From positions 1 to 64,000 of the forward strand of contig JAUMXI010000002.1 in the NCBI GenBank assembly GCA_030529185.1: a DNA stretch of 64,000 bases. The letters run 5' to 3'. A program made the position numbers and the translations under genes. This document shows, piece after piece, positions 14,218-34,964 of this stretch (position 1 is the stretch's first letter; the number at the start of each line of letters is the position of its first letter). The stretch is from Flavobacteriaceae bacterium (lineage in GTDB: Bacteria > Bacteroidota > Bacteroidia > Flavobacteriales > Weeksellaceae). Below the pieces are notes generated by a model that ran no database searches, was not told where the DNA came from, and saw only the letters and a list, made by a program, of their open reading frames with translations.

Positions 14218-15114
14218 TTAGGCGATTCCTTCTTTTTTATCTTTTAAAATTTTTTGTTGTAAATTTTCTCGGTATTTTTTCGGCGTGATATTGGTGATTT
14301 TTTTAAACAACCTCGTAAAGTAAGATGCCGACTCAAAGTTGAGTTCATAGGCTATTTCTGCAATGTTTTTAGAGAAATTCTGAAGCAAAATTTTCCCCTG
14401 TTCTACGCAATACTCATCAATCCAATGTTTAGGGGATTTTCCTGTCGTTTTTTTGATGCATTTATGGAGATAGCTCTGCGAAATGGCAAGGCTATCCGCA
14501 TAAAACGAAACCGATTTATGCTCCAAAAAACACTCCTCCAAAAGCGATTTAAATTTAGTAGAAATAGCAATATCCTTTACATTAGCAAGGTCTAAGGTCT
14601 GATAATCAACCAATCTCGCTAAAATAGAATTAAATAAATTGAGGGAGACCGTAAATCTCCCTCTCTTTTCTTTTAACTCCTTTTCTAAAAGGTATAGGCT
14701 TAAATCCATTGATTCCGTGTCGCTGTTATCCAGAGTATAAAGAGAGTGCTTCCCATCAGAAAACTGAAAAGAGCAAGTGAAAGATTCTATCTCATAATTT
14801 ACCACATAACCTTCCGCGTCGTTAGAAATATCCAAAGTTCGGGTAGAATCCCCTTGTTTCACATTGATACACTGAGACTTTTCAACCTTAAAAACTTTTT
14901 TTTCTAATTGTTGAGTAACGGAACCACAAGTGACGAAAATCAGAAACCCGAAAGCTGTCTTGTAGGGCTTTTCCACTGGAAGAATGCCCTTCAGGTAGTT
15001 TTGTATCCTATACACTTGTATTTTGTCTTTATTCAATATAATATTATTAGGAAGGAAAGACAAAAATCTTTTTTTATATTCTGTGCAAGTTAAAATTTCA
15101 CCAATTTTTTTCAT
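14218..15114 (-). CDS. AraC-family transcriptional regulator, divergent from urease
   Basis: The protein has an N-terminal ~170-residue sensing region of cupin-like character. The C-terminal AraC double helix-turn-helix starts near SFYADSLAISQSYLHKCIKK and continues to NIAEIAYELNFESASYFTRLFKKITNITPKKYR. I choose the second Met (15114). The upstream Met at 15147 lies on the gene's own predicted -7 element, so the longer form is unlikely to be translated. It is divergent from ureAB, an arrangement like that of the urea-responsive AraC activator UreR in Proteus, and is therefore the best candidate for the urease regulator. The inducer is unknown. Confidence 0.88.
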   Translation of the reverse strand: MKKIGEILTCTEYKKRFLSFLPNNIILNKDKIQVYRIQNYLKGILPVEKPYKTAFGFLIFVTCGSVTQQLEKKVFKVEKSQCINVKQGDSTRTLDISNDAEGYVVNYEIESFTCSFQFSDGKHSLYTLDNSDTESMDLSLYLLEKELKEKRGRFTVSLNLFNSILARLVDYQTLDLANVKDIAISTKFKSLLEECFLEHKSVSFYADSLAISQSYLHKCIKKTTGKSPKHWIDEYCVEQGKILLQNFSKNIAEIAYELNFESASYFTRLFKKITNITPKKYRENLQQKILKDKKEGIA

Positions 15115-15144
15115 TTTAGTGCTACTTTTATTAAAATAGTAATA

Positions 15145-15152
15145 CAAATTTA
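15145..15152 (-). promoter_or_regulatory. Predicted promoter of the AraC gene (-7 element)
   Basis: The minus strand reads TAAATTTG (TAnnTTTG). A GTGCTA sequence, like those in front of ureAB, lies at 15119-15125, just downstream of the expected transcript start, so autoregulation is possible. Confidence 0.5.
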
Positions 15153-15200
15153 AGATAATTTTTGGGATTAAAAAAACTTTGTAATGTTTTGTGGTATAAA

Positions 15201-15300
15201 ATTCCTTATTTGTGCTATATTTTTAATTAGTCTCTTTTTGTGCTACAAAAGTATTATTTTGTAATATTTTTTTTGAATTATAGACTATACCTTTGTCTCA
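15201..15300 (+). promoter_or_regulatory. Urease promoter with repeated TGTGCTA candidate operators
   Basis: TACCTTTG at 15288-15295 is a perfect -7 element. Upstream, TGTGCTA occurs twice in direct orientation (15211-15217 and 15239-15245, 28 bp apart), the pattern expected for AraC-dimer half-sites. The predicted 5' leader of ureAB is only ~20 nt. About 73 bp of this region recurs with ~78% ungapped identity downstream of ureC. Confidence 0.6.
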
Positions 15301-15322
15301 CTAATTAAAAAAACAAATAGTT

Positions 15323-15946
15323 ATGCATTTAACCAAACAAGAAAGCGAAAGACTATTATTGCTTTACGCTTACGACGTTGCAAAACGCAGAAAAGAGTCT
15401 GGATTGAAGTTGAACTACCCTGAAACTTGTGCTTACCTGTCTGGGTACATTTTAGAAAGTGCAAGAGAAGGGAAGAAAACCGTTCGTCAATTAATTGAAG
15501 ACTGCGGTAAATTACTTAAAGCAGACGAAGTAATGGAAGGTGTAGCAGATTTGATTACAGACTTCCAGCAAGAGGCTGTTTTCCCTGATGGAACTAAAAT
15601 GGTATGTCTTAACAACCCTATCCCTTCAAGTGGAGCGACTCCAGTAGGAGCTTATGAGTTTGCAAAAGATGATATTGAGCTAAATGAAGGAAGAGAGAAA
15701 ATAAAAGTAAGCGTGACGAACAGAGGTTCTCGCCCTTGCCAAGTAGGTTCTCACTACCACTTCTATGAAGTAAACCCTGCATTAGAATTTGACAGAAAGA
15801 AAACTAGAGGATTCAGATTAGATATCGCAGCTGGACTTTCTGAAAGATTTGAGCCAGGACAAACAAAAGAAGTGACTCTTGTTGCTTATGGAGGAACAAG
15901 ACAAGTAATTGGCTTCTGGAACAAGGTTAATGGTTCATTAGACTAA
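15323..15946 (+). CDS. ureAB: Urease subunit gamma/beta fusion
   Basis: This single 207-residue chain combines the urease gamma subunit (residues ~1-100, [18 protein letters not shown] to [14 protein letters not shown]) and beta subunit (~101-207, with [17 protein letters not shown] and [18 protein letters not shown]). Such fusions are known from Helicobacter. Unlike Helicobacter pylori UreA it ends at ...[11 protein letters not shown], lacking the extra C-terminal tail. With UreC it forms the urease that hydrolyses urea to ammonia and carbamate. ureC starts 42 bp downstream. Composition is richer in GC and more codon-restricted than neighbours, suggesting high expression. Confidence 0.96.
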
Positions 15947-15988
15947 AAAACTATTTAGCGAAATTATAACATTATTAAACAATTAGTT

Positions 15989-17695
15989 ATGAAAAATAAA
16001 ATAAGCAGAAAAGAATACGCTCATTATTTTGGTCCTACAAAAGGAGATAAAATAAGATTAGCAAACACAAACCTTTGGGTAGAAATAGAAAAAGACTATA
16101 CCGTTTATGGTGAGGAAGTTGTTTTCGGGGGAGGTAAAGTAATTAGAGATGGTATGGGGCAACACCCAACTGCTCTAAAAGACCAAGTAATGGACTTGGT
16201 AATCACAAATATTACAGTAATTGACTATACTGGAATTTATAAAGCTGATATCGGTATTAAAGATGGAAAAATCGCTAATATCGGTAAAGCAGGAAACCCT
16301 TTCACACAAGAAGGTGTTACGATGACTATCGGGGTTGGAACCGAAATCATCGCTGGGCAAAATAGAATAATGACAGCAGGATGTATTGACCCGCATGTTC
16401 ACTTTATTTGTCCTCAACAATATGAAATCGGATTGGCATTAGGAACAACTACTTTGATTGGTGGTGGTTCTGGACCACAAGAGGGTGGTTTGGCTACTAC
16501 TTGTATGTCAGGGGTTTGGCATACACAAAACATGGCTCAGTCTACTGACCATTTGCCAATCAACTTTGTAATGTTAGCAAGAGCAAACAGCTCAAGCAAA
16601 CTTGCTATCAAAGAAATCGTAGAAGCAGGTTGTGGTGGTCTTAAAATTCACGAAGACTGGGGAAGTACTCGTAATGTATTAGACACTGCAATGAAAGTTG
16701 CTGACGATGAAGATATTCAAGTTTGTATCCACACCGATACATTGAATGAAGGTCTTTATGTAGAAGATTCATTAGACGCTTTTGAGGGTAGAACTATCCA
16801 CACTTACCACTCTGAAGGTGCTGGTGGAGGACACGCTCCTGACCTTTGCGTTGTGACAAGATTTAACAACATTCTTCCATCTTCTACTACACCTACCAAC
16901 CCATTCACTATCAACACAATGGATGAGCACATGGATATGATTTGTACTTGCCACCACTTGGACAAAGAAATTCCAGAAGATTATGCTTTCGCTGAATCAA
17001 GAATTAGAAGAGGAACAATGATGGCAGAAGGTGTTCTTCAAGATATGGGTGCTATCAGTATGATGTCTTCTGACTCTCAGGCGATGGGTAGAATTGGAGA
17101 GGTGGTTATCCGTACTTGGCAAATTGCTGACAAGATGAAGAAAGATAGAGGACCTCTTCCACAAGATAAAAATAACGACAACTTCAGAGTGAAGCGTTAT
17201 GTTTCTAAGTATACCATCAACCCTGCTATTACTCACGGTATTTCTGAGCATGTAGGTTCTATTGAGGTAGGTAAAATGGCAGACCTTATTATCTACACTC
17301 CAAATATGTTTGGTGTAAAACCTCATATGGTATTAAAAGGAGGATTCCCAGTTTATTCTGCAATGGGAGACCCAAGTGCATCTATCCCAACTCCTCAACC
17401 GATTATCTACAGACCATCTTGGGGTAATTTCGGTGAGACTGTAGGACAGACATCTGCTCTATTCGTTGCTCAATCTGCAATTGACAAAGGAGAGTTGAAA
17501 GAACTTGGAATTAAAAAACAATTGCTTCCTGTGAAGAACACTCGTAATTTGAAGAAAACAAATATGATTTTCAACGCAGCGATGCCAGAGGTAAAAGTTG
17601 ATCCGAAAACTTATATCGTATCAATAGACGGTGAAGAGATAGATATCAAACCATCTGACAAACTACCTCTTACGCAATTGTATCACTTAGGATAG
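15989..17695 (+). CDS. ureC: Urease alpha (catalytic) subunit
   Basis: Catalytic urease subunit of 568 residues. All metal-site and catalytic residues are present with a constant +2 offset from Klebsiella numbering: H136 and H138 (DPHVHFICP), the carbamylated K219 and H221 (LKIHEDW), H248 (CIHTD), H274 (HTYHSEG), flap C321-H322 (TCHHLD) and D362 (SSDSQAMGR). The sequence looks closest to Helicobacter-type UreB. Remarkably, no ureE, F, G, D/H or urea transporter gene adjoins or occurs anywhere in the window. Either the accessory genes are elsewhere, or the enzyme is of the type that does not need them, as in Helicobacter mustelae UreA2B2. Confidence 0.97.
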   Translation: MKNKISRKEYAHYFGPTKGDKIRLANTNLWVEIEKDYTVYGEEVVFGGGKVIRDGMGQHPTALKDQVMDLVITNITVIDYTGIYKADIGIKDGKIANIGKAGNPFTQEGVTMTIGVGTEIIAGQNRIMTAGCIDPHVHFICPQQYEIGLALGTTTLIGGGSGPQEGGLATTCMSGVWHTQNMAQSTDHLPINFVMLARANSSSKLAIKEIVEAGCGGLKIHEDWGSTRNVLDTAMKVADDEDIQVCIHTDTLNEGLYVEDSLDAFEGRTIHTYHSEGAGGGHAPDLCVVTRFNNILPSSTTPTNPFTINTMDEHMDMICTCHHLDKEIPEDYAFAESRIRRGTMMAEGVLQDMGAISMMSSDSQAMGRIGEVVIRTWQIADKMKKDRGPLPQDKNNDNFRVKRYVSKYTINPAITHGISEHVGSIEVGKMADLIIYTPNMFGVKPHMVLKGGFPVYSAMGDPSASIPTPQPIIYRPSWGNFGETVGQTSALFVAQSAIDKGELKELGIKKQLLPVKNTRNLKKTNMIFNAAMPEVKVDPKTYIVSIDGEEIDIKPSDKLPLTQLYHLG

Positions 17696-17726
17696 AATAT
17701 CTAATTTAGCCTATTTCCATAATTTC

Positions 17727-17760
17727 AAAAGCCTTCCCATAAATTTTTGGGAGGGCTTTA
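17727..17760 (+). terminator. Terminator of the urease operon
   Basis: AAAGCCTTCCCA and TGGGAGGGCTTT pair around an 8-nt AT loop, 31 bp after the ureC stop codon. This supports a two-gene operon that ends here. Confidence 0.8.
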
Positions 17761-17770
17761 TTTCTTGGTT

Positions 17771-17853
17771 TAAATTCCTATTTTGTGCTATAAATGTATT
17801 AATTTGTATTATTTTTATTGATTTGTCGGTTATACCTTTGTATCGTCAGTTAG
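17771..17853 (+). promoter_or_regulatory. Second copy of the urease promoter region
   Basis: This segment aligns without gaps over ~73 bp (17780-17852 with 15236-15308, about 57 identities) to the ureAB promoter. It includes a TGTGCTA (17784-17790), a TTTG 26 bp before the -7 element, and the exact TACCTTTG -7 element (17833-17840). It also retains AAATTCCT ahead of TGTGCTA, as in the first upstream half-site. No protein gene follows it; the next ~78 nt end in a terminator. Confidence 0.6.
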
Positions 17854-17922
17854 TGATATGTGAAGCATATCTAAATTTAGCCAATTTTCAAAAAAGACTA
17901 CCCAAATGCGTAGTCTTTTTTA
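17845..17922 (+). ncRNA. Predicted ~78-nt small RNA downstream of ureC
   Basis: From the duplicated urease-type promoter a transcript of about 78 nt is predicted. It begins near 17845, forms a first hairpin GATATG-TGAAG-CATATC (17855-17871), has the palindrome CTAAATTTAG (17871-17880), and ends in a terminator hairpin with arms AAAAAGACTAC and GTAGTCTTTTT (17891-17920). The only start codon is followed at once by a stop, so it is non-coding. It may be a co-regulated sRNA or only a remnant of a duplicated urease operon. Confidence 0.45.
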
Positions 17923-18029: not shown

Positions 18030-18076
18030 AAACATTCTAACTGACAAATATCATTAGAATTTTTAATTGAGTTTTT

Positions 18077-18084
18077 TACCTTTG
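18077..18084 (+). promoter_or_regulatory. Predicted promoter of the NlpC/P60 lipoprotein gene
   Basis: TACCTTTG exactly matches the TAnnTTTG -7 consensus and lies 57 bp before the start codon, giving a ~50-nt leader. Confidence 0.55.
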
Positions 18085-18141
18085 TGGCATCAAAAATAAA
18101 ACTGGGAAAATTCATCGCAAAACTCCATATTTATAATTGTT

Positions 18142-18795
18142 ATGAAAACAAAAAATAGTTTATTTTACATCTTTGCTATAAGTTTTTTTTCTATATTTCA
18201 ATCTTGTGTGTCTAACTATATGGTTACCGCACCACAAATAACACCAAATCTCAATAAAGAAGAGGTTAAACTTGTAGAAATAGCTACTACAAAGCCTGCA
18301 TTAATAAACCAGAATATCATCAAACCAATTCTAATAAAAGAAGAAAACACCGAAACCCTTGCTACAATAGAAAAGGAAATAAGAAAATCAAACACTATTG
18401 ATGGTATCTTAAATGAAGCAAGTTCTTATTTGGGAACGCCTTATAGATTAGGAGGAATGTCAAGAAGAGGGATAGACTGCTCTGCGTTTGTACTTTCTGT
18501 ATTTGATTCCGTAGGTATTAATTTACCAAGAGTTTCCGCTGCACAAGCTCAAGAGGGAGAAAGAATAGAAAAATCAAATATTGAAAAAGGCGATTTGTTA
18601 TTTTTCCAAACCGTAGGAAAAAGAATTTCCCATGTTGGAATTGTTCAGGAAGTGACTCCAGAAGGAGAAATTAAATTCATCCACGCATCTTCTTCAAAGG
18701 GGGTGACCATTTCTTCTCTTAATGAGAGGTATTGGGGAGCAAGATACAGATTTGCAAAAAGAATACTTACCGACTCAGAAGGAGAAATTTTATAA
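18142..18795 (+). CDS. NlpC/P60-family peptidoglycan endopeptidase lipoprotein
   Basis: This is a lipoprotein (lipobox FQSC, Cys22) with a ~60-residue linker and a C-terminal NlpC/P60 domain. The catalytic triad is visible: Cys113 in GIDCSAF, His164 in ISHVGIV and His181 in FIHASSS. Such enzymes cut the gamma-D-Glu-diaminopimelate bond in cell-wall stem peptides and act in the periplasm. It is monocistronic between the urease region and convergent menD. Length (217 aa) is normal for Spr-like hydrolases. Confidence 0.92.
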   Translation: MKTKNSLFYIFAISFFSIFQSCVSNYMVTAPQITPNLNKEEVKLVEIATTKPALINQNIIKPILIKEENTETLATIEKEIRKSNTIDGILNEASSYLGTPYRLGGMSRRGIDCSAFVLSVFDSVGINLPRVSAAQAQEGERIEKSNIEKGDLLFFQTVGKRISHVGIVQEVTPEGEIKFIHASSSKGVTISSLNERYWGARYRFAKRILTDSEGEIL

Positions 18796-33055: not shown

Positions 33056-34501
33056 TTAAATTGTTGAAAGTCTTAATGTGTTGGTTTTCCCACACTCATA
33101 AACGGGCATTGCGTTGAGATTTACCACAAAATCTCCTTGTTTTACAAAGCCATAATTATGAGCCAACATATTCACCTGAATTACCGTTTCATCGGTAGAT
33201 TTTTGCATATCATAATAAAAAGCACGAACGCCCCAAAGGAGATTTAATTTCGTTAAAACCCTTCTATCCGAACAAAATACGATAATATGAGCATTTGGTC
33301 TGTGGGCAGAAATTTGAAATGCCGTATAGCCAGAGTTCGTCAAAGTAATAATTCCTTTTGCATTGGCTTTTTTGGCAATCCTTACCGCTGAATAACAAAT
33401 CATATTTGTAATATATCGGTCGTCTTCTTCCTCTTCAATTCTCTCAATTGGTTTGTTATTATGAAGATACAATCTGTCTTTTTCAATATTGCTGACGATT
33501 TTCGCCATATTTTTGATTACCTCCACAGGATAATTTCCCACAGAAGTTTCCCCAGAAAGCATCACTGCATCGGCTCCATCTAATACGGAGTTCGCCACAT
33601 CATTTACCTCTGCTCTCGTTGGCGTAAGGCTGTTAATCATCGTTTCCATCATTTGAGTAGCGATAATCACAGGTTTGGCGTGAAGTTTTGCCTCTGCTAC
33701 CAATTTCTTCTGAATTACAGGTACTTCCTCCATTGGCACTTCAACTCCCAAATCTCCTCTGGCAACCATTATTGCATCGCATTCTTTTAAGATTTCGTGA
33801 ATGTTTTCCACACCTTCTGGCTTCTCAATTTTAGCGATAATAGGCGTTTTAACCCTACCCTGAGTATGATTTTTAATTAAATCTTTTAAATCTTTAATAT
33901 CCTGAGCGTGTCTTACGAAAGAGAGTGCAATCCAGTCAAAATCGTTGTCCAACATAAATTTAGCATCTTCTATATCCTTCTCCGTAAGGGCAGGAAGCGA
34001 AATTTGGGTATTCGGTAAATTCACTCCTTTTTTAGAACTCAAGGCTCCTCCCTGAATGGCTTTTGCTTTTACAATATCCTTTCCGTTGGTTTCCACCACT
34101 TCAAAAACCAATTTTCCATCATCTATCAAGATTCGCTCACCGACTTTTACATCTTGGGCAAATCTTTCATAAGTCATATAAACTTTAGTGGCATCGCCTT
34201 CTACTTTTTCATTCGTAAAAGTCAGAATATCTCCAGGTTTGATAAAAGAGCCTTCTTTCACCACTCCTACTCTCAATTTAGGACCTTGCAAATCTCCTAA
34301 AATAGCCGTATTAAAGCCATATTCTTCATTAATAGAGCGAACTAAATCAATATTTTTCTTCACCAAATCATAATCGGCATGGGAAAAATTTACTCTAAAT
34401 ACATCTACTCCTTGTTTTATCATCTCCACCATCGTTTCTCTATTGGATGATGCTGGTCCCAAGGTTGCAATAATTTTTGTTTTCTTCATATTTTTATTCA
34501 T
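33056..34501 (-). CDS. pyk: Pyruvate kinase
   Basis: Glycolytic enzyme producing pyruvate and ATP from phosphoenolpyruvate. Typical segments are KIIATLGPASSNRETM, DLQGPKLRVG, the catalytic Lys region IIAKIEKPEGVENI, MVARGDLGVEVP and the signature GADAVMLSGETSVGNYPVE. Several in-frame ATGs precede KKTKII; I choose 34501 (MNKNMKKTK), although 34489 is also possible. The start overlaps the end of the IPExxxVDY gene by a few bases. Confidence 0.96.
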   Translation of the reverse strand: MNKNMKKTKIIATLGPASSNRETMVEMIKQGVDVFRVNFSHADYDLVKKNIDLVRSINEEYGFNTAILGDLQGPKLRVGVVKEGSFIKPGDILTFTNEKVEGDATKVYMTYERFAQDVKVGERILIDDGKLVFEVVETNGKDIVKAKAIQGGALSSKKGVNLPNTQISLPALTEKDIEDAKFMLDNDFDWIALSFVRHAQDIKDLKDLIKNHTQGRVKTPIIAKIEKPEGVENIHEILKECDAIMVARGDLGVEVPMEEVPVIQKKLVAEAKLHAKPVIIATQMMETMINSLTPTRAEVNDVANSVLDGADAVMLSGETSVGNYPVEVIKNMAKIVSNIEKDRLYLHNNKPIERIEEEEDDRYITNMICYSAVRIAKKANAKGIITLTNSGYTAFQISAHRPNAHIIVFCSDRRVLTKLNLLWGVRAFYYDMQKSTDETVIQVNMLAHNYGFVKQGDFVVNLNAMPVYECGKTNTLRLSTI

Positions 34502-34964
34502 CATAATCAAGTATTATTTGGTATAATTCATCTTCTAAATTTAGCGAACAATTTTGCATTGTATAAAACCAATCTTTAGGTAAATTTAGAGCAGAAAAGT
34601 CTGTTTCTCCTTCTTTGGAAAACAAGATAAAATCAATATTGCTGTTGATAAAAAATTTTTCTTCTTCTATCAAATCAAAAAGTCCTACAATTTGCTTTTC
34701 TTTTCTCCTAAAATCATAAGATTGATTGGCAATAATGGTATAAGTGATTTGTCTCACTTCATCAAAACCCTCAAAAACAGGAAATTGATAATATCCAGAA
34801 TCATCTTCTATCACTAAATCTTTTCTTCGGGAAAAATAAAAGGAATTTTGCTGGTTAATTTTAAAAAAAAGCTCGTGATAAGGAATTTTTTGTTTCAATT
34901 TTAGTAATTCTACTGAAACAAATTCCTCTTCATCAAAAGTTAAAACTAAATTTTTATTTTTCAA
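34494..34964 (-). CDS. IPExxxVDY-family protein
   Basis: This 156-residue, acidic, cytoplasmic protein of unknown function corresponds in position and length to the Bacteroidota family named for its IPExxxVDY motif. Here the motif appears degenerate (KIPYHELFFKIN). The assignment relies mainly on its conserved location between rnc and pyk. It overlaps rnc by 11 bp and pyk by 8 bp, so it is tightly coupled to both. No catalytic motif is visible. Confidence 0.7.
   Translation of the reverse strand: MKNKNLVLTFDEEEFVSVELLKLKQKIPYHELFFKINQQNSFYFSRRKDLVIEDDSGYYQFPVFEGFDEVRQITYTIIANQSYDFRRKEKQIVGLFDLIEEEKFFINSNIDFILFSKEGETDFSALNLPKDWFYTMQNCSLNLEDELYQIILDYDE

Follow-up and report, generated by a model that had tools for sequence, protein, structure and literature searches.

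A candidate small RNA gene under a copied urease promoter in a Flavobacteriaceae bacterium, with complementarity to the translation start of a second urease gene

Introduction

RNA-mediated switching between isoenzymes with different metals has been documented for superoxide dismutases. In Streptomyces, s-SodF, an sRNA derived from the 3'UTR of one metal isoenzyme gene (sodF), is complementary to the 5'-terminal and start regions of the mRNA of the other (sodN), resulting in inverse expression of the Fe and Ni enzymes (PMC3919588). The known case of a bacterium with two ureases is transcriptional: in Helicobacter mustelae, UreA2B2 and UreAB are inversely regulated by nickel, with NikR acting on both promoters (PMC3919588). 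In Helicobacter pylori, the 5'ureB-sRNA (RF02514), a cis-encoded RNA of ~290 nt, causes transcription termination and lowers urease (PMC8322730).

Here, a 64,000 nt stretch of a Flavobacteriaceae genome (referred to as the window) was analysed together with the remainder of its single draft assembly (118 contigs, 1.71 Mb). Positions 17781-17921 are likely to represent an sRNA gene under a copy of the ureAB promoter, the RNA of which would block translation of ureC1, a urease gene on another contig (C16), in trans and thereby act as an isoenzyme switch. Similar to s-SodF, the 3'UTR of the window ureC contains 14 nt that perfectly complement the beginning of the other isoenzyme gene, a match unique in the genome. 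However, s-SodF is processed from the sodF mRNA and has no promoter of its own, whereas a dedicated unit with a copied promoter is predicted here besides the 3'UTR copy; the enzyme, the phylum and the regulator (Nur in Streptomyces, AraC type here) also differ. The locus resembles that of H. mustelae in that a stand-alone, fused-subunit urease is present beside a nickel urease, with inverse expression (here proposed from sequence), yet an AraC-type regulator and an antisense RNA would take the place of NikR. Resemblance to the H. pylori 5'ureB-sRNA is functional only, as both are antisense to the 5' part of a catalytic subunit gene, the former being cis-encoded and the present candidate trans-encoded. 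What sets the candidate apart from s-SodF and the H. mustelae system is a predicted RNA gene of its own, driven by a copy of the operon promoter, and a search of a literature library retrieved no urease sRNA with such switch logic.

Results

A stand-alone urease operon and a second urease cluster

The urease region of the window comprises the following features:

14218-15114, minus strand: AraC-family regulator (Pfam HTH_18/HTH_AraC), divergent from ureAB, start set at the ATG at 15114
15323-15946, plus strand: ureAB, fused urease gamma-beta subunit (Pfam Urease_gamma and Urease_beta)
15989-17695, plus strand: ureC, urease alpha subunit (Pfam), metal ligands conserved in an alignment to Klebsiella urease 1ejw
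17728-17759, plus strand: intrinsic terminator of the ureAB-ureC transcript (terminator prediction)

The operon ureAB-ureC (15323-17695, plus strand) stands alone, with no accessory genes adjoining it in the list of open reading frames. Its closest relatives were found in Sphingobacterium (60% identity for UreAB and 68% for UreC), where three loci (L012, L013 and L014) display an identical layout, including an AraC protein (38% identity) encoded divergently from ureAB. No UreF or UreD matches were detected in the three Sphingobacterium genomes carrying these relatives, unlike the source genome, in which both are present on C16. This comparison suggests that the window urease and its Sphingobacterium kin represent an enzyme that may mature without UreD/UreF, and draws attention to a clade of stand-alone ureases within the Bacteroidota, whose genomes lack matches to these two proteins. 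The stand-alone urease is probably independent of nickel accessory proteins; Helicobacter UreA2B2 likewise reportedly matures without accessory proteins. The metal ligands of the window UreC correspond to the standard urease set, which does not distinguish between metals, and H. mustelae UreB2 was not the closest match among solved structures.

A family search identified ureAB matches in 92 of 299 genomes, none of which is near the source genome, while a class-wide search for the AraC protein returned weak matches only (best-scoring, 31%). The AraC/ureAB-ureC locus (14218-17695, with L012, L013 and L014) is in itself a candidate for an accessory-independent, possibly nickel-free Bacteroidota urease, and a search of a literature library found no accessory-free urease described from this phylum.

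The cluster on C16 (L011) encompasses hypA- and hypB-like genes (the hypA-like gene being named by its sequence only), a urea transporter gene, ureA, ureB, ureC1, ureC2, ureE, ureF, ureG and ureD. As C16 carries the sole full-length IMPDH of the genome, it is taken to derive from the same organism and is unlikely to be a contaminant. Its two ureC genes (L011, 7712-11408) are arranged in tandem and are identical at 509 of 573 positions, with terminator-like sequence between them and promoter-like sequence preceding the second.

Recurrence of the ureAB promoter downstream of ureC

Three promoter-associated segments were delineated:

15187-15235, plus strand: upstream half-site pair, TTTTGTGGTA at 15187 and ATTTGTGCTA at 15208, direct repeats 21 bp apart, putative regulator site
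15236-15299, plus strand: ureAB promoter, with half-sites TTTTGTGCTA and TTTTGTAATA (spacing 21 bp) and -7 box TACCTTTG at 15288-15295
17781-17844, plus strand: second urease promoter copy, half-sites at 17781 and 17802, -7 box TACCTTTG at 17833-17840

The first-pass annotation had reported that 73 bp from upstream of ureAB recur after ureC with ~78% identity. This was confirmed, the earlier alignment being a slightly longer and looser version of a 64-nt ungapped direct repeat (15236-15299 versus 17781-17844) with 83% identity (BLAST E=2.6e-12 against its own genome); similarity further upstream is patchy (17761-17792 versus 15188-15219, 78%). Both copies carry TTTTGTGCTA, then another half-site at a 21-bp interval, then TATACCTTTG, and most of the mismatches between them fall elsewhere than in the half-sites and the -7 box. 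When three mismatches at most were allowed, the pattern TTTGTGCTAYNAANNTATTADTTTGTADTATT matched just these two promoters in 1.7 Mb (control matches, 0), and a looser pattern (a pair of TTTGTNNTA half-sites at 21-bp spacing, together with TANNTTTG) retrieved the same two and no others genome-wide. The second promoter is best explained by duplication.

The box TACCTTTG conforms to TAnnTTTG, the -7 box of flavobacteria, located at -12 to -5 in Flavobacterium psychrophilum (PMC9723704). This position places the predicted +1 of the candidate sRNA at 17845. The spacing of the half-sites (21 bp, i.e. two helical turns) and the adjacency of the genes indicate that the divergent AraC-type protein probably activates both promoter copies. 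A TTG box is usually situated 17-23 nt upstream of the -7 box; no TTG was read in that interval in either copy, as would be expected of activator-dependent promoters. No TTTGTGCTA sites were found upstream of the C16 urease genes, which are therefore probably outside the same promoter control.

Retention of the half-sites and their spacing would also suit an extra operator copy, either titrating the AraC regulator or activating the urease promoter from a distance, with the RNA as a by-product. We consider this very improbable, as the -7 box and a terminated transcript unit, neither of which a decoy needs, are kept as well, and the antisense content described below would be left unexplained.

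The candidate sRNA unit

The second promoter copy is followed by these features:

17845-17921, plus strand: candidate sRNA of ~77 nt, +1 deduced from the position of the -7 box
17890-17921, plus strand: intrinsic terminator of the candidate sRNA (fold and terminator prediction)
18074-18092, plus strand: separate promoter-like -7 box of the NlpC/P60 gene, TACCTTTG at 18077-18084
18142-18795, plus strand: NlpC/P60 lipoprotein gene (Pfam), the next gene after the sRNA unit

Two hairpins and a terminator had been proposed to follow the second promoter; on folding, segment 17843-17925 was predicted to form a small hairpin and a 12-bp terminator stem at 17890-17921 (z=-4.1), with none of 200 shuffled sequences folding as well. 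As ureC has a terminator of its own (17728-17759), which differs from that of the sRNA, the element after ureC constitutes a separate predicted transcription unit. In terms of sequence features, the candidate sRNA possesses its own promoter and intrinsic terminator and is devoid of a conserved ORF, the longest in-frame reading by eye being a short GTG frame of ~25 codons that runs into the terminator. The duplicated activator-type promoter, the separate terminators and the significant fold support the proposal of a small RNA co-regulated with the urease.

The segment 17781-17844 lies on the same strand as the NlpC/P60 gene, the next gene downstream, and could be viewed as the promoter of that gene. 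This is the least probable of the alternatives, as the terminator at 17890-17921 intervenes and a TACCTTTG belonging to the gene itself is present at 18077-18084.

Among 58 relatives (none congeneric), matches to the element were only terminator-like or short and AT-rich, and the element is absent from the Sphingobacterium relatives of ureAB (60% identity). The Rfam family RF02514 was considered for 17845-17921 and rejected, as its covariance model matches inside ureC genes and not at this position. Antisense matches to RF02514 were observed in all three ureC genes (window 16147-16430, minus strand; L011 10961-11258 and 8983-9280), which probably reflect coding conservation rather than an RNA.

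Complementarity to the ureC1 translation start

Three segments complementary to the beginning of ureC1 were identified:

17697-17711, plus strand: anti-ureC1 segment of the ureC 3'UTR, perfectly complementary over 14 nt to C16 ureC1 +3 to +16
17845-17854, plus strand: pairing region 1, GUCAGUUAGU, fully complementary to C16 ureC1 -24 to -15
17861-17883, plus strand: pairing region 2, matching the antisense strand of C16 ureC1 codons 1-12 (23/23 identity, two gaps of 6 and 3 nt)

GUCAGUUAGU represents the first ten bases of the candidate sRNA, the predicted +1 at 17845 being the first base of the 10-nt complement. In the 3'UTR, GGCTAAATTAGATA has exactly two occurrences in the genome, namely the ureC 3'UTR (antisense) and the ureC1 start (+3 to +16). 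Calculated helix energies were -12.9 and -10.9 kcal/mol for the sRNA and -17.5 kcal/mol for the 3'UTR. Pairing regions 1 and 2 meet ureC1 in parallel order, and one RNA is thus unable to form both as one continuous duplex; a single sRNA would probably use one pairing region at a time, or two RNAs would bind.

The segment noted earlier after ureC does recur within the candidate RNA, with ATATCTAATTTAGCC (17697-17711) and ATATCTAAATTTAGCC (17867-17882) both present and ~30 nt around them aligned at 83%. Its presence in both places, interpreted earlier as a leftover 3' end, is better explained by a common target: ATATCTAA(A)TTTAGCC is the reverse complement of the C16 ureC1 start.

These data bear on the possibility of a ghost operon, in which ureAB-ureC was duplicated in tandem and the genes of the duplicate were then lost, so that a promoter fused to a 3' end, now functionless, remains. 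The promoter copy (83%), the alignment of ~30 nt around ATATCTAA(A)TTTAGCC to the ureC 3'UTR (83%) and the tandem ureC copies on C16, which show that urease genes duplicate in this genome, are all compatible with such a history. As an account of the present element it is nevertheless unlikely: the unit contains no sense-strand leftover of the ureAB or ureC coding sequence, the two terminators differ, most of the promoter mismatches fall elsewhere than in the half-sites and the -7 box, and complementarity of both the 5' end and the middle of the sRNA to ureC1 would go unexplained. The earlier suggestion of a duplicated operon with deleted genes stands as a possible origin only: the sRNA unit may have arisen by a collapsed duplication, in which the ~30 nt around the shared segment were possibly duplicated too.

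Specificity of the predicted pairing

The proposal of pairing is post hoc, having been made with 12 urease-related starts in view, and its specificity was assessed against genomic backgrounds. Run length alone is misleading in an AT-rich genome, and energy- and composition-weighted scores were used instead; base composition was weighted because unweighted gapped alignment over the 12 starts (score reached by 93 of 12,548) was not decisive. In the composition-weighted antisense alignment of the sRNA against the 12 urease-cluster starts, none of 12,542 genomic 47-mers reached the observed score. When only the 5' end of the sRNA was aligned to ureC1, the corresponding score was reached by 10 of 18,868; for the ureC 3'UTR it was reached by 13 of 12,564. 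A same-strand control of the sRNA and 3'UTR against those 12 starts gave no comparable match, the sRNA scoring at background level. The stacking energy of the 3'UTR-ureC1 helix exceeded that of all 282 other real downstream segments against the 12 starts, and was reached by 2 of 16,925 random pairs.

Translation starts were also ranked across 1.01 of the 1.71 Mb (59% of the genome; 785 starts). In three separate tests, with the 5' end of the sRNA, its middle portion or the 3'UTR of ureC as the query, ureC1 ranked first; the sRNA middle and the 3'UTR are mutually related, while the sRNA 5' end is independent of both. By generic folding energies, ureC1 was high but not first (5/785 by cofold and 2/785 by duplex), and with a shorter target window (+30) it ranked 17/300.

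A co-regulated sRNA that mainly targets another gene or serves as a sponge, for which the ureC1 match would be a chance event, could draw on these energy rankings, in which a few other genes score as high or higher, and on a 12-nt complement upstream of a pyruvate kinase-like gene (33059-34507). We regard this as improbable, to the same degree as the ghost operon, given that three separately tested stretches place ureC1 first and that two independent stretches would agree on a urease start by chance with an estimated probability of ~2e-5. Allowing for the post hoc choice among a dozen starts, the residual probability of chance is estimated at roughly 1e-5 to 1e-4. The candidate sRNA thus appears to be complementary, above chance, to the region around the translation start of a trans-encoded mRNA.

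The start region of the pyruvate kinase-like gene (33059-34507, minus strand) represents the second-best antisense match of the sRNA (12 nt, GCTAAATTTAGA), indicative of either a second target or chance.

Discussion

In the mechanism that we favour, the AraC-type regulator would jointly turn on ureAB-ureC and the ~77-nt RNA. The 5' end of the sRNA would pair in trans just upstream of the ureC1 start codon, and its middle would pair across the start codon and the first ~12 codons. Occupation of the ureC1 start by the sRNA, and perhaps also by the 3' end of the ureC mRNA, would stop translation, such that the nickel-type urease is off when the stand-alone urease is on.

A broader interpretation, to which we would assign slightly less than an even chance, is that of a one-way switch assembled at one locus, in which an accessory-independent, probably nickel-free urease and its AraC-type activator are combined with a promoter-copied sRNA and a 3'UTR segment that silence ureC1, the sRNA having arisen from a promoter copied beside an antisense fragment of the rival urease. 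Control of one urease at its start by an sRNA having the same promoter as the other urease would represent a compact second solution to urease switching, in a phylum for which few sRNA targets have been characterised and a genome in which no Hfq was found.

The pairing site is lacking in ureC2 (antisense score of 15.5, versus 30.1 for ureC1), and nickel-type UreC might therefore not be fully shut off. The gap of ~440 nt between ureC2 and ureE (L011, 7271-7711) contains a terminator-like hairpin, TACCTTTG and a second possible hairpin, and may hold another small RNA.
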